From NCBI GenBank assembly GCA_022539475.1, contig VCMS01000251.1, forward strand, positions 1-64,000: DNA of 64,000 bases, read 5' to 3'. A model generated the notes under the pieces. That model had not been told where the DNA came from. It worked only from the letters and a program-made list of their open reading frames with translations, and did no database searches. Source of the DNA: Gracilaria domingensis (taxonomy: Eukaryota; Rhodophyta; Florideophyceae; Gracilariales; Gracilariaceae). Shown piece by piece: positions 13,390-34,530 of the stretch; within the stretch, counting starts at the first letter, position 1, and every line of letters begins with the position of its first letter. A program made the position numbers and the translations under genes.

Positions 13390-15752
13390 CAAAATCGGTT
13401 GACAACCAGAAGACACCTCACTGAGCCTGCATTCAACAGTACATCTCTGAAGTGAAGATGTTTCTCAATCACGTTTGTTGTCCCTCATTATAGGCTACAA
13501 TGACGATGAAAAGATCTCACCAAAGTGAGGAAAAGAGTGAGGTTCACATGCTACTTCAGCAATCTTCCTGCAAGGGCCTAAGCTGAAAGAAGAAATTTCT
13601 GAGGCAGGAAGCTCAAGAAAATTTAGTCTGTTTGCCTGATGAACTGGCTCTCAGAAACGTACGCTGAAGAAAATTAAGAAGGGGCATGACCAAACGATGA
13701 GCTGAAAAACTGCACAAGTCAAGAAGAAAAGGCACGATAAACGCACATTATGTCTTCCCGACGATCTCGCATACTGCGCTAGTGCTCCTCGACCTGCGTA
13801 CAGGAGAGGACATCCAAAGAACAAAAAGGTCGACGCCAATGACAAACTATGTTCTACAGATTGAACAGCAGCAGGCCTTCTTCTCAACTACGTGACGCTT
13901 CCTTCCACCAAGACCAAAGGTTTTCCGCCTTGCGATTTCAAGACTTTCTCTTGGCTTTTTGCCAGATCTGTGAACTGAGATCGAGACCCGTTTTGGAGTT
14001 GAGAAATTACGGAAAATGGTTCTTTCATCCGCTGGAACAGGCCTTGGATTCTTTTATCTCTTTTCGCAAGAATGTCTGGAAGAAAGTGGAATTTTCAGTC
14101 ATCGCTCGATGTGCTTGATGAAAACTATGCTCGCCCTGGGGTAACACGCGAACCAATTCCGCACAACCCCCGATTATCTTCTTTGAAATTGAGCCCATCC
14201 GTATCCAAAGAACAATTTACACAGACTTACAATAAGTTTCTGAAAGCAGAAAATGAAGCCTACCCAAGAATGATGACGAGAACTAGACGTTGTTTGGACG
14301 TCCTATTGGGAAGGATTCTCATAACGCATGGACGAACATGCGGCCATCTGTCCTAGTAGCAGAACTGCGCTTTCTAAACTTTCATGTTGTTCAGCATGGC
14401 TACATAATTCATGGGCTCATGGCGACTTGCTTTACTTTTTCAGCGTTCCCCAATGCAACGTGGGCTATGACGTCATCTGAACAAAAGCTCCTCGGTGCAG
14501 CGAACTCTAACTCGCCGCCTCAGCCACAAAAGCTCGCCATCCGCTCGTCTATTTTAGATTTGCTGCCTCTTCATATGGCACCCCATGGATGGCATTGGGA
14601 AGCCCGCAACTGGATTCCTCTCCAACGTGTCAATGGGACCATAGAATTCTAAGGCCTTGGACTTTATGAGTATTTTACGAAGACAACACAAAATCACCCT
14701 AATTACCTTATCTAATGGTCTTCCGTCTAATTCAAGGCCAAGGCTTTCGTGGACATGGTCGGACATAATGACCCGCCATAACGCGTACTTTCTTATTTCC
14801 GCAATATTTCAACGATGGTCTTGTTAATACACCAACCAGATTGCTACGTTTCGGGTACCCACTTTCTTCACGTTGTGCCCCACCTCCGGGATTTTCGGAA
14901 GAATTCTCGATCCGACAACACGGTCGTAGGAGGCGTGGACAGGGCTTCTCCAGGAACACTATCCAGGCTCGAGATACTTCAAAAGTATACCATCCCGCGG
15001 CAGACAGAAATCCTAGGTATTCCCGTTGCAAATTTGAAAATCGATCAAGCTCTTTCATAAAGACATGGATCGACACCAAGACCACATTTCAGGCCAATCG
15101 AGGGAAATTTAGTGTCATAGAACTTTCTGTCTCTCGTGCCTGAACTTAGGATTCCCAAAACGAACGATAGAGATCATTTCTTGTTGCCTTTCAGTACGGC
15201 ACCTGATCGAGACACCCAGCTTGTTCGCTACTATGAATGATGCGCAAATAATCGGTCCGATTGACGCCAACTCTGTATACATGCGCGATGCAGATGGTTC
15301 CATGCTTAGAAGCACGCTTTCTACCCTCCTGGTTGCGCACGACTTGTTGCCCTTATTTCAACGATCGCTTAAGATTCGTCACCCAAATTCATTTGTCTTG
15401 GACCGAATTAACTGCTGGCTGGACGGTACAGGTGAGAACTGCAATTAGTGGTGCCGCTCACACTATTCGAAAGACCCCAAATTTGATGGCCGGTCACATA
15501 ACTTAGTGTGGCCCACACCGTTAAAGAGCCTAAAACGTTTAATTGGGCGTGCGTCTCGTCGTATCGAACCCTACCATACACGTAAGAGAAAGTATCAAAA
15601 CGAGAATAGTTTTGATATTACGAGATTCAAAATTAGTGGTGGGCACCACGTAAACTTTTTACGCACACTAATTCTATTGAACCCCACCACTAGTTAGCGG
15701 TGTTCACTTTGTACGGTGGGATATAGCGCATGGAGAGTCGCCATGACATACA

Positions 15753-15861
15753 AGTGTTTTAGGAACGGGCGTTCAAAACACGTGCTTTTAGGACGGGCGG
15801 CAGATCACACGTTGTTTGGAGGGCCCGTTCAAATACACGGTGTTTGGTACGGGCCGTCAAG
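15753..15861 (+). repeat. Minisatellite, about 29-bp unit, four copies
   Basis: Four degenerate units follow one another, each built as GTGTTT(T)-GG-ACGGGC-GTTCAAA-ACAC. The preceding 15430-15700 also holds short palindromic pieces around GGTGGGCACCAC and CCCACCACTAGTT. No coding sequence is evident. Confidence 0.65.
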
Positions 15862-16479
15862 ATTTACCATCTTGCGGAATGCACTGCGCCTACGTTTTTC
15901 TTATATCTCGGTTGTTGGGGTTGGAAGTCATTAGGCCCTTTGAGAGTTGGGTGTAGTATTGAAGTCGAAGTATAGGGCTGTTTTATCTACAGAAACTATG
16001 TAATTGATTGAGAGCCTTGTAAGAACAAGGTCGAAGACCACTCCAATGATGGTATTATGGTGCTCCAGACACAACTGAACAGCCTTCATAATCGTAACAA
16101 ATCGAACACAAAATTTGATGCCTTTCAGGGCATGAAATAAACGAGAGTCACAAACATGATACAAGAAAATTCGGTGCCCTCCCGACGAGACTTGTCGCAC
16201 GAGAGATCCACTTTGGAATGCAACATTCTAGCTTCGTTGGACTTCTAGGCAGCATGGCCAGAACCGTAGGGCATGACGTCCCTTTTAACACTCTTGTGAC
16301 ACGCTACTCTGACTCTAAGTCACATTCACATCTTTGATGCGAAATAACAAAACAAAAAAGAACTCAGCTGAACATCTCATCCAAAGAAAGAGGCTCCGTA
16401 AAAGATAACGAAAGAGTAGGGAGGTGACGGGATGCCGAGGGGCAGGGGAAGGGGTGGGCGCGAGTATTAAGACGATGCA

Positions 16480-19400
16480 ACAACTTCGATGAGATGGTCC
16501 CTAAAGATGTACACGGAAACACTCCGGACAACCGGATGAGGCCACTCCTTTCAAAACTATTTCATTTCGTCATTCTTGTGTACATCCCTGCTCAAAATTC
16601 TTTTCAACAGCCACAGCACCATGAAAGTGCGGGGACGAACATACCTACACTTTCACTACACTCTGCCACTATCAGCGACAGCCGGAAACGACAGTGAGTG
16701 GCGTCTGCGCCCAAATATGTGCACCTTTGATGACAGCATCAAAGAACAAAAAATCGCCGGTCCATCCCCAAGGCTGGTAAACGGCCCATTGAGACTGTCG
16801 CCATTCTAGTCAGGCGGTAGAAGCTGGATTCAAAAATTGTCAGAGATGCGTTCTAGACTTCTGTACAAACTCGTGAGCGCTCTATTACGACTTCCTCAGG
16901 CGTCCTTTTTCCAGACATTCTCTCTTAAATAGTCGGGCGTAAAGAACAATAGCAAACGAATCAATTTCTATACCTCCCCGGGGTGACACTCTAGACGTGG
17001 GTCAGCGAAAACCCACTGAAACGGGTGCCTGGGGATACCGATAATAGCACCTCAGGCGACAAATAGGTGGTGGACGAAGGAGGTGTGATGATGCGCGAGT
17101 CTGCAACGGCCCCGAAAGGATGCTCATTCCAGACGTCTAAGGCGACTACAGATGCTTAGAGATTAAGTGTCCGCTCTAAAATTCCTGAAAGATGTTTTTG
17201 GTAAAGACATTGCTCACAGCGAATCGCATTCCTATGCCTCTCGTTACACTGTGAGCAGCCTTGTCAGCGACAAGGTCACCAACAACCCGTCAACGCTAGT
17301 AATCTTTTGGACAAATCGGCAACTACCAGTAGACAGACTTCGACAGGACCAAAATACTTGCGATTGACACAATACATACTGCAACCGGCGAGAAAATCGT
17401 GCTCATCAAACACCCTGGAACTGCTCCCATGGCGATGAGTCAGCAGAGTGCCTTAAACGCTTCTGGACAAGTCTGATCAATTCCCTCGATCTTCCTCATT
17501 CTTCATTTTGTTATAATCCGTGACTGGGTCTCAAATAGATTTGTGTTAAACAGCGAATTAGCACTCCTGAAATTCGATTCCCATACCTCCCGCATATACT
17601 CTGCACTTGGTCAGCGAGGAGCTCAATGGAAGGACATAGGGTTCGGAAAAGTGCATCTACAATGAACAGCATCAAGAACGAAAACTCGCAGTCATCCAGG
17701 GAGCTTGTACACGGCCCAACAAACGAATCGACTCGAGGCCAGACGTCTGGATGGACCGAATCAATAATGGTCTATGACCGATCAATACTATGCGTCCAAA
17801 ATGCTTCTAGAACTGGGCCCCAGCTCTGAGGCACCCTTCCCCGACGACTTCTTTCCATTTCCTTCGTATGTTGTACATGCTGCCCGACCTGCGAACGGAT
17901 TCTTGAAACAGCGGAATAGCACTCTGACAACGGCATTCAGTCACCTCCCATTCATACTCTACACAAGTCCGAGGAAAGGCTTATAAAGACATAAGCGACT
18001 CGCGCCGCAATGCACTCAATGACAGGCATCCAAGAAACAGAAATTCGCCCATCATCCACAAGTCTGCAACGCCAGAAGAAAAAACGTCGACTGTCAGTTA
18101 ACGGCTCACAGGACAGATCCAAAAGATGCCGTCAAAAGATGCTCTTAGGACACTTCTTGGGCAACTCTGAGCACTGCTACACCGACCTCTCAACGCGTTC
18201 CTTTTCTGACATCTCGCCTCAAAAATTGATTTGCCGAAAGACATTGCACTACGGGAATCCAATTAACACTATACGACACTATCCCGGTACACTCCAGACC
18301 GTGTCAGCCAGGGGTCAGAAAACCGCACGTAGACGTATTGCAGCCCAAAGCGCCTCCATTAGTGACAGCATTTATGGCACGAAAATTGTGATTGACAATA
18401 GTCCCTGCAACCGCCCGAAACACATGCCCCTTCCAGACGTCTAGGGGACCGACGATAGATTGGTGCAGCAGCATGTCCCCCTAAATCCTTCAAAAAGTTT
18501 TTGTAAAGACATTGGCCACACCTGAATCAATTTCCTTACCTCCATTGGCACACCTCTAGAGCGTGGTCCAGCCCAGAGTCGGGAAACCGACGTGAGACGT
18601 TTGCAACAAACGCACTACGCGCTACAGCCATTATAGTAGCGGCAACGCGAACGGGGAGCTCATCAAGACACCATAGACCGCTTTCTGGCAATGGTTGCAG
18701 CAGATGCCTCTAGAACACTTTCTGGACAACTTCTAAGCCACTTCACTCGACTTCCTCATTCCGGTCATTTCTGTGTACCATCCCTCTCTCTCAAAGAGCT
18801 TTCTGTAACAGCGAAATAGCACTCTGAAATGCCCCATTCGCATCACCTGCCCACTATACTTCTGCACATGTCAGGCCGAGAGCTCAAATGCAAAGGACAT
18901 TACACGGCTTCTGGCAAAAATGCAACCCAATGACAGCATGATCAGCGAACCCACAAAGCGCAAGTCATCCACAGTTCCGTAACGCCCAAACGTCGCCTTC
19001 TAACCAGACGTGCCTAGGACCGATCATATATGGTCAAAGATCGCTTCCTATGAATACTTCTGCGGCAGCTCGCCAGTCCCTTCCCTCGACTTGCCTCATT
19101 CATCTTTCTTGCATACATCACCTACACTCAAGGAGCTCTTTAACCAAGCGACATAGCACTCCTGAACTGCATTCCATAACCTCCCAATATGCTGTACACA
19201 AGCAGACGAGAGGTCAGATTGAAGACCATTTAGCCCGTTCTGGCTAAATCCCTTCCAATGACAACCATCCACGAACAACAATGCCGGTCACCACCAGTTT
19301 GCATAGTGTCGCGAGAGAGTACCTCGCTTCATGCCAGACGTCCCAGATCCGATGGTCACAAGATGGCCAAAGGTCCTCGTAGAATCAATATATAATAGGG

Positions 19401-19900
19401 ACTCTAAGGCCACTTCCCAATCGACCCTTACTACCTATGGCGTCACCTGCATCTGCACGTCTCATGTTTCGGGTATCTATTTGTGTTCTGATAGCATGTC
19501 TGTTCATCAAACTCCTCGGTAGACTTCCATATCCGCCACGGGGAAACGATTCTCTGTCACAAAGGACATTAACCAAACTCAAAACCCAACTCCCTATTCC
19601 TTCTCGTCGCCCACTCTAGACTTGCTCAGCCAGAGTTCAACCATCGCCATGATACGTGTCTGACCGAACAAGCTGAGCTCAGGTAGAGGAGACCTTATGC
19701 ACGAACAATTCCCCGCTGAAATTGACAATCAGTCAGCAACGAACAGGACCAGGATCCTCATCCCCAGACGCGCCAAGGAACGAACCAATATATGGGTCGG
19801 CAGCAGTGCCTCTCGAACACTTCCCGGCGAGCTCTGCTGGAACGGTCCAACTACTTCCCATTTCTAACTTCCAAGCTACAACCGAAAGACCCTCAAAAAC
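16480..19900. repeat. Diverged tandem satellite, unit about 280-360 bp
   Basis: The same ordered landmarks recur about ten times: CGACTTCCTCATT, then CAGCGAAATAGCACTCCTGA, then TTCCATACCTCCC, then CTGCAC, and a CCAGACGTCTAGGACCGAT motif (seen near 17130, 17741, 18434, 19005 and 19335). Anchor copies near 17551, 17911, 18811 and 19145 are easily aligned by eye. Units differ by many single-base indels and substitutions, so the array is old or poorly sequenced. Open frames inside it are short and not conserved between units, so I treat it as non-coding. It could be pericentromeric or subtelomeric satellite. Confidence 0.75.
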
Positions 19901-19989
19901 ATTCCCTACCTTTTTGGAAATTATTTCAAATATTTTTTACGGCGATTTCGTGTATATTCTCTCACAATCTCTGCAATACTATTTGATAT

Positions 19990-20155
19990 ACTTCTTCCGA
20001 AACTTTTGAAAATCCTCCCAGAAAATCCCTCCCTCCAGAAACACCCCTCAATATAGGGAATAATCCCCCTAATCCCCTAGAATCCCCTAAGGTCCACGCT
20101 AATCCCCTCATTTCCTAATCCCCCTAATTCCTCTATTCCCCTACAATCTCTTAAT
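19990..20155 (+). repeat. Degenerate CCCCTAAT telomere-like repeats
   Basis: Several variants of AATCCCCCTA, AATCCCCTAG and AATCCCCTC are crowded here. The other strand reads ATTAGGGG, which resembles a telomere-type G-rich repeat. The same motif reappears at 29820-29852 and once at 35206, so it may mark boundaries of the mobile segment that lies between. Confidence 0.55.
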
Positions 20156-20589
20156 GCTGATAAATCTTCAGTGTATGCGCTGTCATCCATCTGGTAAAAC
20201 TTTTTATATGTGCTACTACCGCCCATTGCTTTTTTCTCTGATCTGTCATACGTATAACCAAATCGGTTCCTGCAAAATTTGCAGTTATTACCTTTTCTTT
20301 TGACACCGTTTCTACCAACCTTTACTTGTGCTTTAACTTATATTATTCACAACGACGATGCACTGCCCTTCCGTGCTTGTTGCTCGCGGGTGTTGCTCGT
20401 TTTCTCCGGCTGCCGCGGTATTGCTTCATTCTGCAGCATTTTAAAGCCATCATACTCTTCGCAAGACGTTTTCAAACAACTTCTCCACATTTTTATAACG
20501 ATTTTGACTTTGGACTCCCGTGTCCTTTATTTATAGAACGATTTGTACTTGCTCACGTGTACATGTCTTGCCCCATTTATATTGTTGCT

Positions 20590-20732
20590 NNNNNNNNNNN
20601 NNNNNNNNNNNNNNNNNNNNNNNNNNNNNNNNNNNNNNNNNNNNNNNNNNNNNNNNNNNNNNNNNNNNNNNNNNNNNNNNNNNNNNNNNNNNNNNNNNNN
20701 NNNNNNNNNNNNNNNNNNNNNNNNNNNNNNNN
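20590..20732. other. Assembly gap (143 N)
   Basis: A run of 143 unknown bases. It lies just upstream of the Ulp1-like gene, so that gene's 5' end and any upstream element terminus may be missing. Confidence 1.
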
Positions 20733-20734
20733 CG

Positions 20735-23601
20735 ATGATCAAAGTCAAGAAGCCAACGTTGTCCTCTCAGATTATGGAGCGGATTCAAATGGCACGCATT
20801 GGTCCTGTGCTATACGGTCACACTGACTTATTTCTCGGTCCTTTTATTGGGCGACATTCCTCAAAGGCCAACTTCCGTCGTGTTTGTCATGAGATCGGGG
20901 AACCCCACCGCTTCCGTCGCCACCAACCTCTCCTCGTTGTGAAATCCGATGTCAACTTTCCACAGGGGCGTCTGGTAGTCGTGGGTGGAGGTCACCGGAT
21001 ATTGACGGCTGCACATATCATGCAAATTCTACTTCTTCCTTACCAGGTTTTGAACCTGGATGGACTTACGCAGTTTGGACGACCGGTTTCGGTTCTGACG
21101 CATGACGCGCTAATATCCCACCATCTGGAGGCCACGGAACCGAGGCCTGAACCCTTCAGTCTTATGGAGCAAGTTCTGTCATTCAAGCGGCTCATGGAGT
21201 ACTGGAATTGGTGCGAGGAACAGAAGCACGTGGCCGACGGTAAACGTCCTAAACGCATGCCGGCTATGACGCAAACGAAGCTGATGGCTCTGTATGATTC
21301 ACTGAAGGAGGAATCTGGGGAGAATAGTAAATATGCTATTGAGTTCATGTCTCCCCCAAAGGAGTCAACATGCCAGGGCTATATATCCGGAGCGAGGAGG
21401 CTGCTCCAGGCGGGGGTGGTGGAATATCTTTGTGAGCTAGAGTGCGCCGGTATCGCGACGTTCCCTCGACGAACGCTAAACGTTGTGAAGACATGGAAGG
21501 TGGAGAAGATACGCGACAGGGTTGACCTTTGGATCAATCGGCGCAAGGGCGGTTTGCACTGCGACTACAAGTTCACTGACACTACTGGGAGCGAAGTTGA
21601 TGGCCGACGTCGAGGCCGCAAGAGATCGCGAAGCATTTCAAACTCTAAACAATTCAAACGCCCCCCCTTGGGATGGGAGCAGTACTTGGATTGGGCGCAG
21701 CCTGGATCGCGAGCTCTTCTTGAGGAGCTGGACACGAAAGTAGAGGCGGAAGTGAAGGAGATGGAAAGCTCGCGTGACCCTCCTGAGGCGGAGGCTTTTG
21801 CGGATCTGATGTTGAGACAGCGAATTGTTGGAAAAGTTCGAGAAGAGGTTTACATGACGACGGAACAAGGTGTTAATGGGCACGAGTTCGATTTGGCTCA
21901 GATGGTGCACGACGCGCTGGCGCGACATCGAAAGGATGAATCGAAGGCTATTTCCCTAATGGTGAGGGGGGACTTTATAACCAAGCGTTCATCTTGTATG
22001 ACAAGGACTTCCAGCCGATCCTCAACTTCCAAAATGGCACGGATACCTCTATCCACTTCACTTCGGCCTATCTCAGCAATTGGTCCTCGCGTTCGATGGA
22101 AGACGTTTTCGTTCCCGAATCACTAATTATTTCGCCGTGGTTCAAGGGGACTTTGACGGAAGGCGAGGAGCCGCTGATTTCACTTCGAAAAGATACAAAG
22201 TCGCGCACATCGAAAACGTATCTACTGCATCATCGCTGCTGGCAATCAAAGTTAACCTTTCTGCCGATTGTGGGGGCTGGTCATTGGAGTTTGGCGGTGT
22301 TGGTAAACTTTCCCAATCTCCTTGAAGACCTCGAAAAGAACAGTAATGGACTCCGTTTGGAAGACACGGCTTGTGTGTTCTGGCTGGACAGTATGCAGAC
22401 AGGTTCCCCGCACAGCGGTTTTAGTATCAATGTACTGCAGTACCTCCAAGCGGCCTATCCTGGAGATGACGCTCCTTCCATGGATGTATTGAAGAGTGCA
22501 ATTCATTTTCATCCCCTCAAGAAGAACCTCCAAACGGGTATGGAGTGTGGATTCTATGTCTCCTACTACATTTCTCTGCTTTCGAAGGACTACAGCCTAT
22601 TTCCGACTCGTGATTACCAAGCTATCGATCATCACATGGCGGTTATGCGCAAGATGTTTACTTTTCAATCTTACAAGGCGCAAGTTCTACGGCGCCTTCG
22701 CACGATCCGGAAAAAATACAAGCGGAAACCAAATGTTTACGTACAGTCACCACCATTCCTCTGGGACGGCGATGACACCAACGAGAAGGCGACCAACCCC
22801 GAGTCAGGGGAAGAAACGGTGGCTGCCGCAGATCTTCCGAAGCTTCCAATTCAGTTCCCGAGCACCACCAAGTCGCTGAAGACAACGAGTCCGAATGATT
22901 TCATGGAATCAGCACCAACGCGCCAACCTCCATCAACTTCTGGCGCTACGAATGGACGCACTCCCCCACTTTCTGAAGCGACACACCCTAAGAAGGACGC
23001 TGAAGACACACTACCGCCAAACCGGAAACAGAATACCCAGAGTGCGCAGAACGAACAGAAGAACGAACAGAACGGGAACGAGATCGAAACCCAGTTAGTT
23101 ACCCCCTGCACTGTGCTTCGTAACGCGATCGTCGGAGTGGTCCAAGGACTTATCGTCATGGAGCACAGCACATCGGATACGGTGGACATTCACAACCTGA
23201 CGTCAAAGATCCTTGATGACCGCGATATCAAAACAGAGATGAACGGAATTGGTTCGCACAACGCTATACAGGACGCTATGACCAAGATGACGCCGATGAT
23301 TCTCTCGAAATTCAGATCTCTTAGTGAGCCCTCCTCCACACAGACTTCAACGCAGCCCGTGAAGACCCAGGCGGTTCAGCGGCGTCCCGAGTCAAACACG
23401 TCAGCACCGAGGCCTTTGGATCTATCTCAAGCAACGTCAAAGGACATGGAGAAAAAGGAAGGCGTTGCGGTCGTGGCTTTGGTTGAAGAAGGTTACTCTT
23501 TGGTTCAACGAGAGGACGATGGAGATTTGAAGGCCGAATGGCACGAATGCTTCCGTAGAATGCAGAGTTTAATTAAGAGGATGAGACAGAAGAATCGTTA
23601 G
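20735..23601 (+). CDS. Ulp1/C48-like cysteine protease protein, possibly 5' partial, one frameshift
   Basis: About 955 codons with two parts. The first 410 residues match no domain I recognise and include a basic RRGRKRSRS stretch. The middle carries a Ulp1/SENP-type (C48) protease core: His in GHWSLAVL (codon at 22282), Asp in FWLDSM (22387), Gln in NLQTGMECGF (22531) and the nucleophile Cys five residues later (22546). Order and spacing (H, 35 residues, D, 48, Q, 5, C) fit the family, which cleaves SUMO or related modifiers. A Ser/Thr/Gln-rich tail of about 250 residues follows. The frame shifts once inside a GGGGGG run near 21966, which could be a homopolymer error. The first ATG after the gap is used; the true start may lie in or before the N run. 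The gene converges on the tyrosine-recombinase-like gene 175 bp downstream. Ulp1 domains are common passengers of eukaryotic DNA transposons, which supports a mobile-element role. Confidence 0.8.
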
Positions 23602-23640
23602 AGAGAGAGGTACGAGTTGCTCTCACCCAGTCTGTACGTT

Positions 23641-23671
23641 CTCACACACACACACAAACACACACACACAC
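23641..23671 (+). repeat. CA-dinucleotide microsatellite between convergent genes
   Basis: A CA run with one AAA interruption lies in the short intergenic space between the convergent protease and recombinase-like genes. Confidence 0.85.
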
Positions 23672-23776
23672 GGAATCATACAACAGTTTTTTTACTTAGT
23701 TGTGTATGGGGCGTGTGACACAGGTTGTCAGTCACCTCTACTTCTACCTTTCTAATTATGATTTTTACATGCTTGT

Positions 23777-26554
23777 TCAGTTCTTTCTTCTGCGACGGCG
23801 ACGGCGAACCGGCTGCACTTCGTCTTCTTCCTCATTGTCTTCTTCGAATTCTTCCCCTTCACACACTGCATCGCGACCGCCGCCGCCGCCGCGACCACCA
23901 TGTCCTTCATGGGTTCCCTCTCCAACCTCCTCCTCTTCCACCTCGTCCTGGAATAATGCCATTCCATTATACACCTCTTCGTCGTCGTCTTCCGAGTACT
24001 CTGCAGAGTCGCGGCCTTCCTCATCATCTTCATCTCTACAACTACTCGCGCCACTGCCCTCGTCGTACTCCTCGTTGAGGTCATCTTCGTCATCGCTCTC
24101 CTCCCCCAGCAGGCTGCAAAAGTGTCGCGTCAACAGGGCTGTGATTTCTACAAAGTCCTGACTGTGACAGGACATGTATGTCGTTCGTAGCTGCTCCACC
24201 GAAGTATTCATCTGCTTCGCCATGAGGTCCAAAAACTTGTCCTCCTCCAATTTCTTTCCTTTCCTTGTGAACTTACCGTTGCGATAGTCGTGCAGCATGA
24301 CCGTCGCGAAGCTCGTGCGAAGAGTCATGGCCGTCACGGACTTCAAACTGGAATCAATGCCGCGCATAAAAGTCTTGATCGAGCGACTGATATGCGAAGA
24401 TGTCAGATACAAGCCGGTTCGCGTATGAAACAGCAACGGGCGGTTGCGCTTAAACTCTTGCGACATTGGGATCTTCCTCCGCTTCATCACTATCGGTCGA
24501 ACGATTTCAACATGGAACGCAACAAATGGCAGGATAAACTTCGGAAAGTTGACGTTCGGCACGTCCAGCGCCCTCGCCGTCTTCTCCCGAAACGTCTTCA
24601 TCTCGAACATCCCTTTCGGAGTTCGGATCTCTGCAGACCACAAATCCTTCAGTGACTGACGGCTTGGGCACTGCAGCCTAGCGTACGCTTGCGGCCGTTG
24701 GCCGCCGCCAGTGAGCGCGATCAGTCCGACAAAGTTCACACACCACTTGTCAAGCAATCCTTTCGTTGCAGCGAATTCAGACAAAGCTTGCTTCCTCGAT
24801 TCCTTCCCTTCCGTCTCCCTAAACACTTCAAGGATATCTTCGAGTTTCGCTTTCGCTGTTCGAATACCGAGCTCAAGATGCTTCTTCGTGACGATCGTCT
24901 GCTTCAGAATACGATCATCCGCGCTCTGATTTGCGCGATACTGCTCTCGCGCTCGGCTCTTCGCAGCATTGAAGGTCGTGTTCAACATCATTTCCACACG
25001 TAAAACGCGGTTCTTCTCCTCCGGGATGACCATGCGCAGTGCAGCATACTTACATAACGTACGCAAAGCGTTGCACTTCCCGGCAACCGTTGAGAAGGAG
25101 GCCGCGCGGATGAAGTAGTTCACGAATATCCTCACAAGCTTCTCATTGGACATCAACTTGAACAGAGCCATCGGCTTCCAACCTTCGTTCTTCTTCAACG
25201 CCCCACTCGCAATGGCCCATCGCATGAACTGGCCCACAATGGAGCGGAACACATCAAAGTTTCCGGTTGAACCCCGTGCCTGCAGAAGCTGCTTCGTTTT
25301 GTACCGAATAAGATAAATCTCTTTCAAATCCTGGCAGTTCTCGGCGATCAACTTCAAACCGGGATACACAATCTTTCCCTTCGCGGCCATATTCTCCTTA
25401 TCCTTCAGCAGCGCGTTCCGGCTTGTGAAGTAGTCAGGACAACGGAGGAGCTGATCACTCAACATTTCGTTCCAGAGCTCTTTCGGCGACTTTCTTGCAA
25501 GCTCCGCCTTGCGTTCCTTCTCACGTCGAAGCCGCCTCTGCTCTGCAGTAAGCTTACAAGACCCGTTTCGGCGCCTCTTCCGACCCGATGTGGAGCGAAA
25601 TCGACCAGAGTAAATGTCCTCCCTTCGTTCGTACAGAGCGTTGTGGATGGCGCTAAGCTCCTCTTCTTGATCATTCAGCATTGCCTCCAAGTCGATAACA
25701 GGAGGATCAGCTTCGCCAACTGCATCGACCGCTTCGTCTCCTTCTGGCACTACTTCCGCCGCAACTTCTGCTGCAGCTGCTGCTGCTGATGCTGCTGCTG
25801 CTACTACTGCGCCAGCGCCAGTGCCAGCGCCAGCGCCGACGCCGATGCTAGACGACACATTAGCGTTGGGCCCTCCGTTGCTGCCCAAAACTCCTCCAGC
25901 GCTGTCCCCGTCATCTCCAACCACTCCATCCAATCCAACTCTCCCCAACTCATGTTCGTCAACCTCAGCTCGATAATCCCCTCGTCTTCCTCTATTCTCA
26001 ACCCGGTGACGATTCCTCTCACAGGCCTCAGCCGCGGAAATGTCCTTGCGGTTGTGATTGCGCACAGATCCGCTACCGCCACCCGTGCTTCGCTTGAGCG
26101 CGCCTGCTGGCGAGACATTGATACCATGCGCAAATTGCAACGTTCTCCTCACCGGGGAGGAGGGCGGCGGCGTGCTGTCGGAAGCCGCCCCATCGACTTC
26201 GTCGTCCGACTCGCCAAACATTCCGGTAATATTCCAAGGGTGGATACTCGTATACGGAGTTGTCTCTTCGCTGCGATCTTTCGCTGGCACTATCTCATCC
26301 TCAGACCCCCTGATGGTGTCAGCAACAAGCTCACCGCTCGGACCTGTATCCCCGCCACGGCGGCCGTTTCCGCACCTGCCATGAACACGTACCTCTACGC
26401 GACTGGTGCGAGCATTTCCACGCGGATCAATACGTTTCTTCCTCCCAACTTCTGCACCCCGCGTGGGGTTCTTGTTGGCCGCAATGACATCAGAGATTCG
26501 CGGCGGTGAGGACTGGGCCTCCCCCAGAAGAAAGTTGACGATATGGTCACTCAT
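23777..26554 (-). CDS. Large divergent tyrosine-recombinase-like protein (copy 1)
   Basis: An uninterrupted frame of 925 codons from the ATG of MSDHIVNF; the frame is open further upstream to 26827. Residues 1-340 are low complexity (Ala, Gly, Glu and Asp rich). The conserved core starts near KELWNEML. Motifs suggest a tyrosine-recombinase fold: Arg620 in GGGQRPQAY (first catalytic Arg region), HTRTG-LTSSHIS near 710, Arg746 in TLRTSFATVM (resembling the family's H-x-L-R-H-S-F-A-T box with the first His replaced by Thr) and Tyr793 in EQLRTTYM as the candidate nucleophile. The C-terminus is strongly acidic and ends in seven Arg plus KN. Two related copies lie at 33.4-34.5 and 36.4-38.3 kb, so it belongs to a dispersed family. 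Homology between copies is visible directly; recombinase activity is inferred from the motif order. Confidence 0.75.
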   Translation of the reverse strand: MSDHIVNFLLGEAQSSPPRISDVIAANKNPTRGAEVGRKKRIDPRGNARTSRVEVRVHGRCGNGRRGGDTGPSGELVADTIRGSEDEIVPAKDRSEETTPYTSIHPWNITGMFGESDDEVDGAASDSTPPPSSPVRRTLQFAHGINVSPAGALKRSTGGGSGSVRNHNRKDISAAEACERNRHRVENRGRRGDYRAEVDEHELGRVGLDGVVGDDGDSAGGVLGSNGGPNANVSSSIGVGAGAGTGAGAVVAAAASAAAAAAEVAAEVVPEGDEAVDAVGEADPPVIDLEAMLNDQEEELSAIHNALYERREDIYSGRFRSTSGRKRRRNGSCKLTAEQRRLRREKERKAELARKSPKELWNEMLSDQLLRCPDYFTSRNALLKDKENMAAKGKIVYPGLKLIAENCQDLKEIYLIRYKTKQLLQARGSTGNFDVFRSIVGQFMRWAIASGALKKNEGWKPMALFKLMSNEKLVRIFVNYFIRAASFSTVAGKCNALRTLCKYAALRMVIPEEKNRVLRVEMMLNTTFNAAKSRAREQYRANQSADDRILKQTIVTKKHLELGIRTAKAKLEDILEVFRETEGKESRKQALSEFAATKGLLDKWCVNFVGLIALTGGGQRPQAYARLQCPSRQSLKDLWSAEIRTPKGMFEMKTFREKTARALDVPNVNFPKFILPFVAFHVEIVRPIVMKRRKIPMSQEFKRNRPLLFHTRTGLYLTSSHISRSIKTFMRGIDSSLKSVTAMTLRTSFATVMLHDYRNGKFTRKGKKLEEDKFLDLMAKQMNTSVEQLRTTYMSCHSQDFVEITALLTRHFCSLLGEESDDEDDLNEEYDEGSGASSCRDEDDEEGRDSAEYSEDDDEEVYNGMALFQDEVEEEEVGEGTHEGHGGRGGGGGRDAVCEGEEFEEDNEEEDEVQPVRRRRRRRKN

Positions 26555-28140
26555 TGTCGCGCAGTGAGGAACACAGGGAAAAAGGTGCAACACGACGAGA
26601 AAAAGAGAGGAAAAGCAACAAGCAACAGCGGTATGACTGAAAAAGCCAAAGTGTTGGGATGCGTCAATGATGATGCGCCAACTCCTGTACGATTCGTCGC
26701 TGCGTAACGAGAGGAAACTGGATTCACGCACGACTTTTGATCCCCTTCTTATACTGGCTACCACATCTATGAGTAATAACTTTCTTTCGCGTACGTGTCC
26801 GCACCGCACAAAGGCCCACCACACCACACCGCTCTGTTGTTATCGATAGCAAGAACCGGAATTTGCACCGCTCAGCGTTTCATCTCATACACACGCAACC
26901 TATAGCCGTACTATGATCGTGTTCAGCGTTTGATCTCATACACGCAACCAACCAATCCCCCGTATCTTTTTCACTCGAAACATACAGTGTGATCATGCCG
27001 CATCTTTCACCTAGCCCTAACCCTCTGTTATTCGTTTTAACCAACCTAACTCCGTTTCAAACAAAACACGCTTGACTCATACCATATCCTATATTACTTA
27101 CACTTGCTCCCATGCTTACGCATGCTTTCCAACACAGCTTTTCTCCTTTCTCCTCCGCGTATTAAACATGCCATGACGCGACGTGACGTGACTGCGTCGT
27201 TGCACTTTGGCGTCAACAAAAGTGCCGGAAGCCCCTTCCCATACATACCGCACACACTAGGCTTTACAGTGCTTTCCTCTTGTATCATATAATAATTGTA
27301 ATTGTATGTTTATATTTTTTTCCTCGGGCCACATCAACATGACACCATTGCTGTTTGGCGTCACAATCACTTCTGTGAAGCATACGTCACAGTGACTTGC
27401 TTGGCCCTTACAGTCTTTTGCCATGCCCACACTATTTACTGTATCCCCCAATCCCGTGGCATTCTCTCCTTCTCTTGAAATTTGTGCTCTCATATTTTAT
27501 TTTATTTTATTTGGTTGCCGCTTGACTCCAAGGCAAACACCACTTGCCACACACTACTTACACAATTAACACTATTGCATACAGGCGACTGTCTAGGGCA
27601 CTCCCTTCTCAATAATGTAATCCCCATACGTCATGTACACACATTTCCCCGCAATCGGGGGACAATAATTCATCGCCCGCGTGCGTTGCAGCGCAGCACC
27701 CTTGTATGTCACTGTATAACCTAATATATATGTGTGTGTGTGTGTACAAACTAGAAGAGAAGCATGCCCAGGCCACAATGGTAACGTTCACATGTTTACC
27801 TACTTCCAGCCACTTCAATCGGCTTAAACAACCACCCCGTAGCTTCCCCTTCGCCTCCAATTGGAGTAGAGATCTCACACCGCGAGAGAAGGGATTGTTC
27901 TTTCTTTTACATTCTTTCTCACCTCACCCTCAATCTAATCTCCATTTCACACCGCCTGCCCCCCAAAACAAAAAAAAAACGCTTTCCCTTTCGTAAGGAC
28001 GCAGGATAGGAATAATGTAAGCGCAACGATCGTTGAATCTCTCCCATACTTGAAAGTAAACAACTTTTGAAAAGAAAAAGAAACAGAGAGAAAAAAGAAA
28101 AGAAAAGGGAAAAGGAGGGAAGGGGGACAAAAGGGAGATT
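26555..28140. other. Non-coding stretch upstream of recombinase copy 1
   Basis: About 1.6 kb without a credible gene. A TATATATGTGTG microsatellite lies near 27723-27746, and the T/C-rich stretch 27900-28130 includes a run of nine A. It may contain the recombinase promoter; no specific element could be assigned. Confidence 0.5.
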
Positions 28141-28146
28141 GATATC

Positions 28147-28268
28147 ATGCACACTGAGCAGCAGGCGTGACCAAGGCCAGCGGCGCAGCGTCCATGTGGG
28201 GAGTGATGAGCCCCCCCCATGCATACTGCGCAGCGTGCTTGGCCAGAGCTCGCAGCGCAGTGTGCATG
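28147..28268. repeat. Imperfect inverted repeat, arms about 55 bp
   Basis: The left arm begins ATGCACACTGAGCAGC and ends GCGTCCATGTGGGG; the right arm begins CCCCCCATGCATACTGCGC and ends GCAGCGCAGTGTGCAT. The arms align at roughly 70 percent by eye across their whole length, leaving a loop of about 10 bp. Confidence 0.7.
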
Positions 28269-28344
28269 GGTGGGATTCGAACCACGATCTCCGATGTTGT
28301 AGCACAGCCAGTATGGCCGTTACCAACTGTGCTACACCAGCGGA
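28264..28344 (-). other. tRNA-like sequence, probable tRNA relic or SINE head
   Basis: On the minus strand an A-box-like TAGCACAGTTGG is followed at normal distance by a perfect B box GGTTCGAATCC. The acceptor stem does not pair (only three of seven positions) and no proper 7-base anticodon loop is seen; instead a perfect 10-bp inverted repeat TGTAGCACAG/CTGTGCTACA encloses the middle. This fits a tRNA-derived repeat or pseudogene rather than a working tRNA. Confidence 0.55.
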
Positions 28345-28590
28345 TTTCGCTTGGCCAATCATCGCCACTCCAACATATTTAATCCTAAAATAAACCCTAT
28401 ATCCAGGACGCTTTCGACCCCCAAATGGGTACAAATTCTGTTTCCCAGGACGCTTCCAGCCCCAAAATTGGTATAACGACCGACCCCGCCACGTGTTCCA
28501 ATTGCCATGTCATACACGTTCCTGGCCCGTCATACACGTCTCCACCAACTCCCACGTGTTTGGGAGCGGCACCACACTGTCATGCTGCCC

Positions 28591-29316
28591 CGGCTTACAC
28601 TGTCAGTGTATCCAAAGGGCGAGCAGAAATGCAGGACGCTGTCCTGCATTCTGCACCGGCTTACACTGTCAGTGTATCCAACCGGCCAGCAGAATGCAGG
28701 ACGCTGTCCTGCATTCTGCACCCCGGCTTACACTGTCAGTGTATCCAACCGGCGAGCAGAATGCAGGACGCTGTCCTGCATTCTGCACCGGCTTACACTG
28801 TCAGTGTATCCAACCGGCGAGCAGAATGCAGGACGCTGTCCTGCATTCTGCACCCCGGCTTACACTGTCAGTGTATCCAACCGGCGAGCAGAATGCAGGA
28901 CGCTGTCCTGCATTCTGCACCGGTTTACACTGTCAGTGTATCCAACCGGCGAGCAGAATGCAGGACGCTGTCCTGCATTCTGCACCGGCTTACACTGTCA
29001 GTGTATCCAACCGGCCAGCTGAATGCAGGACGCTGTCCTGCATTCTGCACCCCGGCTTACACTGTCAGTGCATCCAACCGGCGAGCAGAATGCAGGACGC
29101 TGTCCTGCATTCCTGCACCCCGACTTACACTGTCAGTCTATCCAACCGGCCAGCAGAATGCAGGACGCTGTCCTGCATTCTATCCCGGCTTACACTGTCA
29201 GTCTTCCGCCGATCGGGTACAAAAATGCAGCGCACTGTGCAGCATCCTAACACCGCTTACACTACCAGCGAAGAAGCCCATTCTTAAAAGAATGCCGGAC
29301 GCTGTCCTGCATTTTG
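28591..29316 (+). repeat. Eleven tandem 65-68-bp units, each with two palindromes
   Basis: Units start at 28593, 28659, 28726, 28791, 28858, 28923, 28988, 29055, 29123, 29188 and 29255. Each carries a 13-bp palindrome ACACTGTCAGTGT and a longer one with 11-bp arms GAATGCAGGAC and GTCCTGCATTC around GCT, separated by TATCCAACCGGCGAGCA. Inner units are almost identical; the first and the last two diverge. Because unit length is not a multiple of three, all plus frames stay open, so the long ORFs here are by-products. Repeated dyads of this kind typically bind dimeric proteins; a binding site for the neighbouring recombinase-like protein is inference. Confidence 0.92.
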
Positions 29317-29375
29317 TCCAAATCCGTTACAGTATACTTAACCCCTTAAACATTCAAATTTCCTTAAATCTCGAA

Positions 29376-29700
29376 ATCCCTTGAATCCTCTGAATCCTCT
29401 GAATCTACTGAATCTCCTGAGTCCAGTGAATCCTCTAAATCCCCTAAATCTCCTGCAGCAACTGAATTCTCTAAATCCACTGAATCCTCTAAATCCTCTG
29501 AATCCACTGAATCCTCTGAATCCACTGAATCTACTGAATCATCCCCTGAATCCTCTGAAACCTCTGAAACCTCTGAATCCACGGAATCCACTGAATCTTC
29601 TAAACCCTCTAAATCCTCTAAATCATCTCAATCCTCTAAATCCTCTAAATCCTCTAAATCCTTCTTCCACCCTAAATCCTCTAAATCCTCCAAACCGTCG
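29376..29700 (+). repeat. Degenerate 9-bp repeat array (AATCCTCTR)
   Basis: About 35 head-to-tail 9-mers of the form AATCCTCTG, AATCCTCTA or AATCCACTG. Because 9 is a multiple of 3, both strands give long simple-sequence frames (LNPLNP on plus, DSEDSVDSE on minus), which I regard as artefacts. Confidence 0.85.
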
Positions 29701-29852
29701 CCCCCCCACCCCCCTCCCTTAACCCTTAAATCCCCCACCCCCTTCCTAAATCCTAAATCTCCATTTCCCCTTAATCTCCAACATCCTAAATCTCTTGAAT
29801 CCCTTAACCCTATACTATAGTCACTAGAACCCCTAATCCCCTAATCCCCTTC
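29700..29852 (+). repeat. C-rich run ending in CCCCTAAT telomere-like repeats
   Basis: The 9-bp array grades into CTTAACCC, AATCCTAAATC and finally ACCCCTAATCCCCTAATCCCCTT. The same closing motif AGAACCCCTAATCCCCTT occurs at 35206. The neighbouring ORF's stop codon lies within this motif. Confidence 0.6.
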
Positions 29853-30647
29853 TGGTGAATTGTGAGCACGGTTCATTCGGAAGTACGAAAGACGCACGAT
29901 ACCTGCGCGAGCTTCGTCCAGCGTCTCGTACTGCCTGCCGGTTCTTTTCCTGTCGAAGAGGTGTGGTGCCACCGCAATGCCAGTTCTCCACTCCCAGGAG
30001 GTCACCATATCTCGTAGCAAACCGCCTGGCAATGTGCCGTCTTCCGTATAGGAATTGATGATGTCTTCATCCTTCACCGCTTGAGGGTGGAACCAGGGAG
30101 CTCTGGAATACGCCCAACCCCCGTCTAGTCGCCGGTCTCGCACGAGAAGCGATTCGCGTGTGATCCATCCCGACGCGTGTGCCGTAACCGGCACAGCTCC
30201 AGAGGAGTTCGAAGCCGATACCGCGGCAACGTTCATAGCTGAAGCAACCGGCTGCTGACTCCCCTGTGGCAGCGGGGCTGTGGCGAAACCGCCGAAGTAT
30301 CCTGCTCCTGCGGAGGAAGGTCCGGCACCGGAGGGAGCACCAAACTGGCTGGGACCCCCTGAGGAAGGGAAAGTGCTGTCGTTAGAATTCGGATTCATCG
30401 ACAAAGCGAGTTCTCGCGTGACTTGGTCGTTCGGAATCTCGAAGTTCGCATCAGGCGTGTGTCCACTTGAGAGTGTATCGCTGTTGAGCGTTGGTTTTCT
30501 TGGTATCGGGATGTCGGAGTCACTCATGCATGAGCTTATATGTTCTCGCAACGAGGTGGTAATGTCGCTGACACGGTATTCCTCGATGTAAGGAGGGGGA
30601 TGTGTAGAGCAATCGCGATTTCGCGTTTGTGACTTGTTCCGTCTCAT
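29841..30647 (-). CDS. Unidentified 268-codon ORF next to repeat array
   Basis: Not recognised. The N-terminal 160 residues are Ser/Pro/Gly/Asn-rich and look disordered. The C-terminal 100 residues are more ordered, with a Trp-rich stretch (GWITRESL, GGWAYSRAPWF, SWEWRTGIAVAPH) and a basic DRKRTGRQ. An alternative start is the internal MSDSDIPIPRK. The last codons and stop fall inside the CCCCTAAT repeat, so the true C-terminus may have been replaced by repeat sequence. It lies on the same strand as recombinase copy 1 and may belong to the same or an adjoining element. Confidence 0.45.
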   Translation of the reverse strand: MRRNKSQTRNRDCSTHPPPYIEEYRVSDITTSLREHISSCMSDSDIPIPRKPTLNSDTLSSGHTPDANFEIPNDQVTRELALSMNPNSNDSTFPSSGGPSQFGAPSGAGPSSAGAGYFGGFATAPLPQGSQQPVASAMNVAAVSASNSSGAVPVTAHASGWITRESLLVRDRRLDGGWAYSRAPWFHPQAVKDEDIINSYTEDGTLPGGLLRDMVTSWEWRTGIAVAPHLFDRKRTGRQYETLDEARAGIVRLSYFRMNRAHNSPEGD

Positions 30648-30649
30648 AA

Positions 30650-33365
30650 CACCTTGGCTCTTCGAGATGCCTCTACAGCAAGGCTATGAATTTGGGTGGC
30701 ATTCTGACACCATATGGCATGGTGGCACCCGATGGGTTTGATGGATTGGTAACTGGTTGTGGCAGTGGATCGCGTGTACGCTTGTATGGGTTGGCTCTGT
30801 TACAGAGAAAATTGGATTGGTTTTTAGAATTAGTGGCCGCCAAGGCGGGTCTACACAAGTGCAACAAGTGTGTGGCTCTGGGGTATTTGGCACTACTTAT
30901 CTTAATTATTTAGTTTAATTTGTGGAAACCTACTTCGGTGATGGCGACCTCCTCGTCACCACCACAAAGTAAACTCAACCTTGTCCGCGGCTCTGACTTG
31001 AGCTCCTGCGCGTAGTGCACAACTCTGCGAGGAGGGTCACGTCGTACGGTTTCGCTTTTTTAATCCCCAAGGGATCACTCAGGTACTCTGATCTAACACT
31101 CCGTTTGTCTTCGGACTGTGTTCGCACATTTACTTGCAGGTGTCTGCTACTCTGGTGTTGAGATATTGTATCGACTCTGTATAGAGGTCTGCTGCGTGGG
31201 CTCAATACACATCGTCACCCTCGGCCCTGGTCTGTTGCCGCTTGTCGCACGAACCCGCCCTCGGGTTTGTCCCTTTTCCTTTTCTCTCCTTTCCAACTTT
31301 TCCCATCCTTTTTCCTATCTTTTACCCCTTTTTCGAGGCACCCCGTCGACCTTGGTTCCTTCTCTTCCGCCTTCGATCAGAGATATCAGACTCTCGAACG
31401 CTCGCTTACAAATCCTTTCTTGGCGATTCCCGCCCTCACCTCCGTGGTATTTCCGAAGTACGGGCGGTTTTACTCCCGCGTTATCCGTATACGGAGGCCT
31501 CTTCTGCTGAGTCTACCTCCCAATAGAGCAAGGACTGGAGCACTTTGAGTGTCATTTCTCCCAACTGGGATTTGCAGTACACAACCCATGCCCGGTAGGT
31601 GTGAAATCATGACCTCCAACATTTCTAACATTATATGTGCTTGCACTATTGCGGAAAGCCAGATCAACTACGTAGTCAACGCCTCACATTCTGATTTGAA
31701 GTGTTATAGATACGTCGAACTGAGCAAACCTTGAACAGAGGCTACTGACTGCGATTTCTGCACCACGCAAAACGAAGGTCCAGCGCGCTGCGTTTATTTT
31801 GCGCCTATCCGTTGAAATAACACAAATATTAAAAGAACTCTGTTTCTTGGCTGCGTTCAAGCGTTAGAGCGCATGCGCTGACAACATGAGAACGCTCATA
31901 TCAGGTCCAAAACGCTCGATGCAATCCGAGCGATATATATATGCGTGGAGATCAGTCAAAGGCGGAATTGTCAGCGCCTGCGAAGACGATCTTCGCCTCT
32001 GCTCTCCACCGTCAGGTCCGCTCACGCGCTGCCTGGAAGCCTTCTGCCAGCGCATTTCTCCCTTATTCATTTGTCTTTGCGTTGCAATAGTGATAATTGT
32101 AGTTACAAGGATCGAGGATATCGAGATCGCCTTCGTGCAAATGCCAAATCGAGAACGATTTGGCAACGGCGTTGCAAGGCGGCTTGCTCGATCTTCCCCG
32201 ACAAGGCCCCCTTTTTATCTGTTTACCCTCGAACGGGCTATGGTACTCGCGTTTCATGCATCTCGCTTCAGATCTTACAGACATTTATTGAGATACTTAG
32301 AATCATCTATTTCTCTTGCGAGTTAGGAAATCACTAGAGATGATGGTATGACACTTGAACGTGTCCGCAGTAATATGATAATGGCTTAATTAAGCGCGGA
32401 GATCTATATTTGTCAGGATAACCTGCAGTTGCAAGTAAACAGGGAATATGGACTATTTTTGACACAGATTTTACAGCGCTGAACAGGGTTGGTACCAATC
32501 ACTCCGGATGTTGATGGAACCAGCTACTATTGCGATCGCTGGGACAGGTTGCCATGAGGAAGGCTAAGATGGTGCCGGGATTTTGTTCTCTCATCGTTCA
32601 AATGAAATTCAAGAGAGCTAGAAAGGGTTTATATGTTCGGATTGGGCGTCCTGATTTTGTTGTAAGTGGCGATGAATCTAGTAGCCAATTCAGTCGTGGT
32701 GGCGGCGATGGAGTCACATCAATGAACGTGGTTGGGGAAGGGGATCCAATAGATGAGCTGTGTAACATGTTTCGCCCAATGCTACACATTTAACAAGGTG
32801 TTTGTATACGTTCTGGCTCTATGGTCGAAAACGTTGGTCTTGCGTAGGTCGGGTATGCTCGAACGAGTTCACAGGGATCGAATAGCATAGATATGTCTTA
32901 AGATGAATCGCACTGCTGAAAAACACTTGGGAGCTCTGAGTGAGTAAATAAGATATGGATGGCAGGGGAAGAGAGACACCGTAGCGATCTTCTGTGAATT
33001 TTTGAAGGCTTCTGATTGCGCGTAACACCATAGACTGATGGCTTAATATCTCTTCTGAAATGCTCTGTGCAGTTGTGAAGATTAATACGTCGCTTGTCAT
33101 GGGTCGGAGGTGGACTTGCAGATTAAATACTTCCGATACGAGCCCGTTCGTCGTTCCCCGAAGATTACCACAAAGGGGAATGCTTCGCCAGCATTAGAGA
33201 TATCGTACGTAATTGACCTCCCACACCACGTCAGCGCGCTCTATCCTACACGAAAATTAGGATATTGTACGCATAAACATAAAGAGAGAGAGAGATGTCC
33301 CCATTGAAGAATTATAAATGAAGTTGTTGGAAGTTTCTGGTGAACATTTCATTTATTCAGACATG
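30650..33365. other. No recognised gene
   Basis: Only short frames occur. A small plus frame at 30686-30913 begins MNLGGILTPYG and ends in a hydrophobic stretch but has no identity I can support. A T/C-rich tract lies at 31260-31350, and an AG dinucleotide run lies at 33281-33293. Confidence 0.45.
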
Positions 33366-33369
33366 ATGC

Positions 33370-34530
33370 CTAGAAGTTTACAAGAGCCGCCGTGTCACTC
33401 CTGAAGTGTAGGGCTATCTCTCTCATGTACGTATGTTGCAATCGTTCTGGGGATGTGTTCATTTGGAACGCAATCTTCTTGAGCAAAGCTGCTTCATTTA
33501 CATTCTCGAAAACTTGGCTTACATGATACTTTTTGTGTATCATGGAGGCGTAACTTTGCCAAAAATCGATCTTCGTCACACAGCAAGGGTTTTCATTGTG
33601 CGAACTCATAAATTTCTGGGGTGCTGGTGTAATTTGTGAAGGTGTCAGCAGTTTTGCGGTGCTTGCGTGAATCAAGAGTGGCTTCACTGGCCTACACTCA
33701 GCACTACCGAACCTCTTCATTATCGCTGGACGAAAAATTTCGATGTGAAACCTCCACTATGGTATCACTGTCGCAGGTAAAATCAACAGGACGACTGCCT
33801 GTTTCGTCTGTTTGTGTTAGGACGGCGCCTATGCCCGTCCCTGAAGCATCACATGTGCCAAATTGGTAAGGCATTAGCTTTTGATGCTATCATGTAAAGG
33901 TTCGAGTCCTTGGTCAAAAACACATTGCATTCAAACAAAACCAAAGTCCAAACACAACAGTAAGTAGTTAGCATTACTTTCAGCACCAGCGTTCTCATCA
34001 GCGAGAAGTGCTATCAAATATAGGGAACTTTCATAGAATCAAAACATTATGTACTTAGGACATTTCCGATGTGAGTAGATATAGAGGTTGTGGGTTGGCC
34101 TGAAGTTTTGTTAAAGATTTTGCAAAGATAGAAGTACTGCTCGTACTCAAATTTGCTCGGTAGTTGAAGCTGACTCCATACTTGCGGTCTTTGACCTCCG
34201 GAAGCCAGCCCAAGCAGAGCAATAATGTTCACAGACCAATTCGCTTCATATGAGCATACTACCGACGCAGAATCGCTCATGGTCTCTCCTTTGGCCAATC
34301 GCAGTTGTCAGGCAGCCCACATTTTCTTGATCTGTCTGAGAAGACCTCACGCCGCTGACTGCAGCCATCTTAAAATGTCATCATGAAAAGTTGGGAACGA
34401 GAGCGCGCACTTTCCTTGATCGCGTCTTACGGTTCCCTTCGAGCCTACTGCTTTCCCACCGTCAAAGCAATTCCTCGCCGACTTCCCTTGAGAAATGCCG
34501 CGTTCAAATAAACTGCAATGCACCAACATG
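33370..34530 (-). pseudogene. Decayed tyrosine-recombinase-like gene (copy 3)
   Basis: Broken pieces on the minus strand align in order with copy 1. Upstream is a segment like its pre-catalytic region (ISQGKSARNCFDGGK), then NIIALLGLASGGQRPQVW (34120-34260) with the first Arg retained, then PLLIHASTAKLLTPSQI (about 33640-33700), matching PLLFHTRTG-LTSSHI, and finally FWQSYASMIHKKY and MNTSPERLQHTYM near the 3' end. The box that contains Arg in copies 1 and 2 (LRTSFAT, LRSSFAT) reads FWQSYAS here, so the second Arg is lost. Stops and frame changes separate the pieces. A tRNA-like sequence lies inside the relic. Confidence 0.75.
33848..33920 (+). other. tRNA-Gln(TTG)-like relic
   Basis: A D-arm-like GCCAAATTGGTAAGGC, an anticodon arm with loop TTTTGAT (anticodon TTG) and stem with four of five pairs, and a T-arm with GGTTCGAGTCC follow in correct order. 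The acceptor stem does not pair. It is probably a decayed organelle-type or nuclear tRNA copy; a working gene is unlikely. Confidence 0.5.

Follow-up and report, generated by a model that had tools for sequence, protein, structure and literature searches.

The window analysed here covers positions 1-64000 of contig C251 in a 680-contig, 77.9-Mb assembly of the red alga Gracilaria domingensis (Cn below denotes contig n). It contains a convergent gene pair, predicted to encode an Ulp1-type (C48) protease and a tyrosine recombinase (YR). The pair probably makes up the right-hand portion of a multi-gene DNA transposon, present here as a damaged copy. The family to which we would assign it appears to have at least three genes (a divergent ORF3, one for an Ulp1-type protein of ~950-1090 residues and one for a convergent YR of ~900 residues) and a right part of 3-5 kb of repeat-rich DNA ending ...CTATA[C/G]TATAG...AGAACCC. 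The gene order recurs across the genome, a precise right end is common to copies with different flanks, and host copies run uninterrupted through two of the junctions.

In the window, the two long frames face each other with 175 bp between them, their stops ending at 23601 on the plus strand and at 23777 on the minus strand, as the initial annotation had described. That annotation spoke of two long genes; the YR gene encodes 925 residues, and the Ulp1 gene is broken into two overlapping frames. The motifs it had named are all present. GGGQRP, MTLR and MNTSVEQLRTTY, which form an R...R...Y series with a degenerate HxxR box, are moreover conserved; GHW, WLDS and LQTGMECGF in the plus-strand frame complete the H-D-Q-C set of an Ulp1 protease; and the palindrome array on one side was located. 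The features are as follows.

20590-20732: 143 consecutive N immediately ahead of the Ulp1 ATG, which conceal the element's left side.
20735-23601, plus strand: broken Ulp1-type protease gene, in overlapping frames 20735-22126 and 21940-23601.
20825-21067, plus strand: conserved N-terminal region of the Ulp1 protein, QPLLVV...GGGHRxLxAA...LPYQVLDL (alignment A4).
22204-22647, plus strand: predicted Peptidase_C48 (Ulp1) catalytic region, PF02902, residues 89-236 of P0002 (alignment A4).
23777-26554, minus strand: tyrosine-recombinase-like gene, 925 residues from the first ATG, corresponding to residues 96-1020 of P0001.
24170-24787, minus strand: predicted YR catalytic region with Arg715 (GGGQRP), Lys753, Met838-x-x-Arg841, Asn878 and Tyr888 in P0001 numbering (alignment A1).
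28581-29202: array in the right non-coding region, made up of about nine repeats of 65 bp that each contain the palindrome GCAGGACGCTGTCCTGC.
29382-29662: 9-bp minisatellite TGAATCCTC in the right subterminal region.
29802-29836, plus strand: right end of the element, CCTTAACCCTATACTATAGTCACTAGAACCCCTAA, identical in the C100 copy, after which the sequences diverge.
29837-29849, plus strand: CCCCTAAT-type units that separate the right end from host DNA, the host border being uncertain by about four bases.
29842-30683, minus strand: interrupted neighbouring open frame, present as an uninterrupted 426-residue frame on C195.

The ~3.3 kb to the right of the YR gene thus hold the palindrome array and the minisatellite and finish in CTATACTATAGTCACTAGAACCCCTAA; frames of more than 120 residues there overlap the arrays or are unassigned. 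A tRNA-derived part was considered for this region and rejected, as ARAGORN found none and the only Rfam matches were to microRNA models, all below their gathering scores.

To describe the gene set across the genome, we merged 27 matches to the Ulp1 protein into 16 loci, joining pieces of one gene, and recorded neighbours within 8 kb. A convergent YR lies downstream at 12 of the 16 loci and a divergent ORF3 upstream at 13, and neither was ever found in another orientation. Assuming evenly spread matches, the chance of a YR neighbour is ~0.7% per Ulp1 locus. Several loci are nearly identical to one another (window with C100; C405 a with C405 b and C454; C211 with C333 and C405c); when these are counted as groups, YR accompanies 7 of 11 and ORF3 9 of 11. 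Seen from the Ulp1 side, therefore, the genes mostly travel together, a point that the initial annotation had raised for checking. The YR side does not bear this out: only about 14 of 68 YR matches genome-wide stand beside one of these Ulp1 genes. This weighs against the transposon reading, as do the four Ulp1 loci with no YR nearby (C66, C301 and both C275 places).

ORF3 is a 567-residue frame on C405 and a 655-residue frame on C2, the two being 60% identical; the C405 protein had no match in Pfam. Three Ulp1 loci were found without ORF3, namely the window copy, the copy at 38.7-40.4 kb of C100 and one C275 place. Since ORF3 accompanies 13 of 16 loci but none was found in this window, the copy here is a left-incomplete YR-Ulp1-ORF3 element; it is also broken, in its Ulp1 gene. 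Elements of the family measure at least 15 kb; on C2, ORF3 and the right end together span 14.9 kb, which sets a minimum for the complete element.

The right end was defined by comparison with a second copy, the A copy on C100, which is 99.77% identical to the window over 9112 bp, includes the 65-bp palindrome array, and parts from the window after ...AGAACCCCTAA. The two copies share a right end at the identical base and have different flanks. At the window junction, C195 is uninterrupted and is 99.6% identical to window 29846-40077. The C100 copy is flanked on its right by a 2.5-kb repeat, which occurs at least 40 times, and the three host repeat copies examined all run through the C100 junction uninterrupted. 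Related elements, termed family B, have one right end, ...CCTATAGTATAGGCCCAAGAACCC, before three different flanks on C405, C2 and C100; this end was found on C382 and C425 too, and a minisatellite like TGAATCCTC precedes it. A pattern search allowing at most three mismatches yielded nine such ends genome-wide, including those of the window and C100, eight of which were examined in sequence; the reversed pattern yielded one. Because exact common right ends adjoin unrelated flanks and host copies are uninterrupted, we consider the element mobile, in agreement with the initial annotation. A right end of the same type as that at 29836, TATTATAGATTATAGAACCCCTAATCCCC, also occurs at 35190-35225 and is probably from an older element.

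Several features of the junctions weigh against simple recombinase-mediated movement of a delimited element. Immediately after the right end come the right-hand CCCCTAAT units, which vary in number among copies: CCCCTAAA precedes the host on C100 and two CTAATCCC units precede it in the window. Variable-number CCCCTAA(T/A) units between end and host are unexpected for simple YR integration. Further, the left half of the host target was not found next to the element in the window, and on C100, to 52 kb, it was found only inside a separate complete host-repeat copy. Aligning the copies for ends and target sites, as had been suggested at the outset, thus gave an exact right end and empty host copies, but not a left end, which was searched for among the copies and found in none.

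The left side of the window belongs to another repeat. Window sequence left of the 143-N run did not match the C100 copy; positions 1-20589 are occupied by repeat D, of ~20 kb, with copies on C382, C192, C455, C454 and C405. The window repeat is 77-84% identical to these copies over its long matches, and the right-end stretches of the copies are ~99% alike where compared. The right end of repeat D carries a CCCCTAAT tail of varying length, with about ten units on one copy, and the left CCCCTAAT array of the window, at 20061-20143, lies near this end. The two CCCCTAAT stretches were initially read as brackets of one element. That interpretation was rejected, the left stretch being part of repeat D. 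An 8-kb stretch of the C382 copy contains three frames (615, 483 and at least 844 residues), which are unrelated to the YR or Ulp1 proteins by profile; the two that were scanned against Pfam had no convincing match.

The left border of the C100 copy was likewise rejected as a true left end, since it directly adjoins a family B right end (AGAACCC/TAAAC/CGCCC) and no ORF3 was found beside it. A related decayed copy at 57.6-69.5 kb on the same contig does have ORF3, unlike the A copy. As judged from this one junction, the A-next-to-B arrangement might mean that elements insert at older right ends; nested insertion or deletion accounts for it equally well, because no ORF3 was found beside the A copy.

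An alternative is that the three-gene block forms only the right-hand end of an integrated unit of far greater size, for example a giant mobile element or an endogenous virus. The failure to locate a left end in any copy fits this explanation, as do two C405 copies that remain 99.9% identical for at least 2.5 kb past ORF3, to the limit of the compared stretch, and the presence in this genome of repeat D, which is itself ~20 kb long, has long frames and bears tails of CCCCTAAT. However, pattern-based scans of viral contigs revealed no relative of P0001, A1 or A4, and there was no convincing viral gene: Pfam provided none, and a PHROGs search, made with the YR alignment only, was weak, its best match being a virion protein (E = 0.012) aligned to an alanine-rich stretch of P0001. 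We consider a larger unit unlikely.

The 925-residue protein is classed here as a predicted tyrosine recombinase by profile evidence and by the retention of R-K-xxxR-Y in order. In A1, a profile of 11 YR relatives, two rows of which end or slip before the HxxR box, Arg715 and Lys753 are invariant and Arg841 is nearly so, and Tyr888 is kept in all eight rows long enough to reach that position. The position of the second His/Trp is Asn. Where the HxxR histidine would stand, eight of the nine readable rows have Met and the ninth has Thr; Thr also occurs there in a separate piece of a paralogue in the window (36438-38341), and Ile in a decayed remnant at 33373, which has lost the Arg. The window YR further possesses very long N-terminal and acidic C-terminal extensions.

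Profile comparisons place the protein near the Xer recombinases. Searched alone against 18,950 NCBIfam models, P0001 matched XerD (E = 0.0011, residues 777-851) and archaeal XerA (E = 0.011) best, and each model was matched by two of the 11 A1 members. Against the PDB, the A1 profile gave two matches at E≤10, the best at E = 9e-4 and the other, an aminotransferase, at 0.61. The best-matching chain, 9i5v_14, is labelled as the ribosome-associated inhibitor RaiA; in our judgement, its residues 192-305 (HVLRHSFATEML...LLGHDSLSTTVQYTH) read as a XerC/D-type recombinase. The chain may be mislabelled, or it may be a fusion. In hhalign, a profile of seven Escherichia coli YRs aligned with both arginines in register (score 25.7, E = 0.023).

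Other results count against this assignment. The hhalign probability was only 2%. Ten controls, run as single sequences, scored 12.5-20.9, and the seven YRs taken singly scored 11.3-25.4, six of them within or below the control range. Pfam integrase profiles did not match P0001, and among seven of its relatives there was one weak match, to Phage_int_M (E = 0.019). For P0001, the phage-integrase profile search proposed initially found nothing in Pfam; recombinase matches came from NCBIfam and, through A1, from the PDB. Structure prediction, also proposed, spoke neither for nor against a YR fold: two AlphaFold models, from window-only alignments of four and five rows, had a mean predicted local distance difference test score of 48.7 and 47.9, respectively, and Foldseek returned no significant match with either of these poor models. 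The second Foldseek list did include three type IB topoisomerase chains, with E above 2 and not significant.

The ratio of nonsynonymous to synonymous substitution (dN/dS) demonstrates purifying selection in two YR pairs, being 0.22 for C2 versus C405 and 0.27 for the 36438-38341 window paralogue versus C242. On the opposing side, the signal from the A copies was weaker (0.49 for YR and 0.67 for Ulp1), synonymous sites were saturated in the more distant pairs, including the YR of the window versus C405a, and the consistent absence of the HxxR histidine might reflect a loss of activity.

This last point leads to an explanation in which the YR is no longer a moving enzyme and instead binds DNA or protects ends, the CCCCTAA tail being made by other machinery such as telomerase-like addition, end joining or a trans-acting enzyme. 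The substitution of the histidine in all nine readable rows is in keeping with it, as are tails that vary among C100, the window and a repeat D copy, and host left halves that were not found adjoining the element. Conversely, the Arg, Lys, Arg and Tyr residues are kept, two YR pairs are under purifying selection, and the assembly contains no three-unit CCCTAA or CCCTAAA arrays. We regard a non-moving YR as improbable. The first 330 bases of C336, C71 and C676 contain no telomere array, and a link between the tails and telomeres is conjectural. Finally, an ordinary host gene cluster spread by segmental duplication would suit the copies that lie in larger near-identical blocks (C405 a, b/C454; C211/C333/C405c) and the clustering of several copies on C100, but it is hard to credit in the face of exact common right ends, unrelated flanks and uninterrupted host copies.

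The partner of the YR in the transposon is predicted to be a Peptidase C48 (Ulp1) on the strength of its H-D-Q-C set, all four residues of which are present in the C-terminal half of the window protein, and of its similarity to PF02902. The plus-strand frame matched this profile with E = 5.9e-4 and 20.2 bits, just missing the cut-off of 20.7. The PF02902 search that had been recommended does not list the window gene in a genome scan, although relatives on C211, C333 and C405 exceed the cut-off. Intact relatives consist of a single stop-to-stop frame of 964-1094 residues, and the two overlapping frames of the window differ in length by one base from the intact 965-residue C100 copy. The N-terminal region may resemble ParB/Srx domains, although Pfam and PDB profile searches gave no match to it.

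By analogy with Cryptons and other YR elements, we propose that the YR would bind the terminal repeats and excise the element, probably as a circle, and that re-integration would proceed by strand exchange through a tyrosine-linked intermediate at Tyr888. This presumes that the histidine-less YR is catalytically active. The Ulp1 protein might strip SUMO or a similar tag from the recombinase or from host or repair proteins; a role for Ulp1 in the transposition of other transposons has been proposed (PMC2836005). ORF3 would act as an accessory factor.

The initial annotation knew of no named family that pairs Ulp1 with a tyrosine-recombinase-like enzyme. According to Kojima and Jurka (PMC3212892), however, CryptonF-2_PS and some CryptonS elements carry a C48 (Ulp1) peptidase beside the YR. 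The combination is thus not new, because such YR transposons have already been named; what look new are the way the genes are arranged, the presence of a third gene, an active site without the histidine, and ends of the CCCCTAA type.

Like the element described here, CryptonF and CryptonS of oomycetes and a diatom are DNA elements that encode a YR, and some of their members also encode a C48/Ulp1 peptidase (PMC3212892). The window family, by contrast, has no HxxR histidine in its YR, its YR and Ulp1 genes face each other, it keeps a third gene in divergent orientation and a long right part rich in repeats, and it lives in a red alga. Pfam scans of P0001 and seven relatives at E≤10 listed no GCR1_C, a feature of CryptonF, and those of the YR, Ulp1 and ORF3 proteins contained no reverse transcriptase. 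Cryptons have terminal direct repeats of 4-6 bp and no terminal inverted repeats, whereas here the right end alone has been located, to the exact base. We do not class the element as a Crypton because its HxxR box is altered, a comparison made by described features only; by analogy, it may work like one.

Starships of fungi are likewise large YR elements. Their captain is a DUF3435 YR, and certain families prefer other transposable elements or 5S ribosomal DNA as targets (PMC12134995). DUF3435 (PF11917) was absent from the Pfam scans (E≤10) of P0001 and seven relatives; moreover, the YR here lies towards the right end, behind the Ulp1 gene, and no variable cargo was recognized. Ginger1 and Mutator-like transposons resemble the element in having an Ulp1 protease domain within a DNA transposon (PMC2836005), but their recombinase is a DDE transposase and the one here is YR-like. 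In XerC/XerD and phage integrases, box I Arg, Lys, box II Arg and Tyr follow one another as they do here, and the profile matches add to the likeness; the differences are the Met or Thr found here for the HxxR histidine, the Asn for the second His/Trp, and the long extensions. Pattern-based scans of prokaryote genomes found no relatives. Our literature search, with subscription papers and Repbase outside its coverage, found nothing on such elements in red algae.

If the transposon reading is correct, red algae harbour a gene-rich lineage of YR transposons, and Ulp1 partnerships can be compared between DDE and YR transposons. The lineage would also provide a natural test of whether a YR without the HxxR histidine still cuts and joins DNA, and would bear on why transposons repeatedly recruit SUMO-pathway proteases. 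A bolder proposal, which we hold to be rather doubtful, is that of a separate superfamily of YR transposons, perhaps red-algal, with an R-K-M-R-N-Y site, an Ulp1 protein with a ParB/Srx-like DNA-binding N-terminus, a third gene, and variable CCCCTAA-type (telomere-like) right tails that would serve as landing sites for further copies, so that clusters of repeats would build up from elements inserted one after another.

Other YR-family sequences occur nearby. The paralogue at 36438-38341, on the plus strand, is a second gene of the family and is not beside an Ulp1 gene; its frame is broken near 38000, and an 86% relative on C242 has a longer open frame. The remnant noted above, at 33373-34307 on the minus strand, derives from another gene of the same family. 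A 468-residue frame at 53939-55345 on the plus strand contains GHSLKRG and a downstream Tyr and is recombinase-like by eye, with no Pfam match at E≤10. On C2 (597750-598600) and C9 (71870-72870), ~1-kb arrays of TAATCCCC units lie within ~5 kb of YR-family matches. Practically identical family B copies stand in inverted orientation at 15001-31500 and 48801-60000 of C405, with a third on C454, and reflect either a recent duplication or an assembly effect.

The 2.5-kb host repeat (C100:30001-32486, and many other contigs) has at least 40 copies at 99% identity. Among the 40 listed, 13 lie at most 8 kb from a contig start, and the repeat is possibly subtelomeric; a frame on one strand resembles a HAD-type phosphatase by eye. 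Elsewhere in the assembly, a red alga is also indicated by phycobilisome linker domains (PF00427), of which there are four on C680, probably the plastid, and others on eight further contigs.

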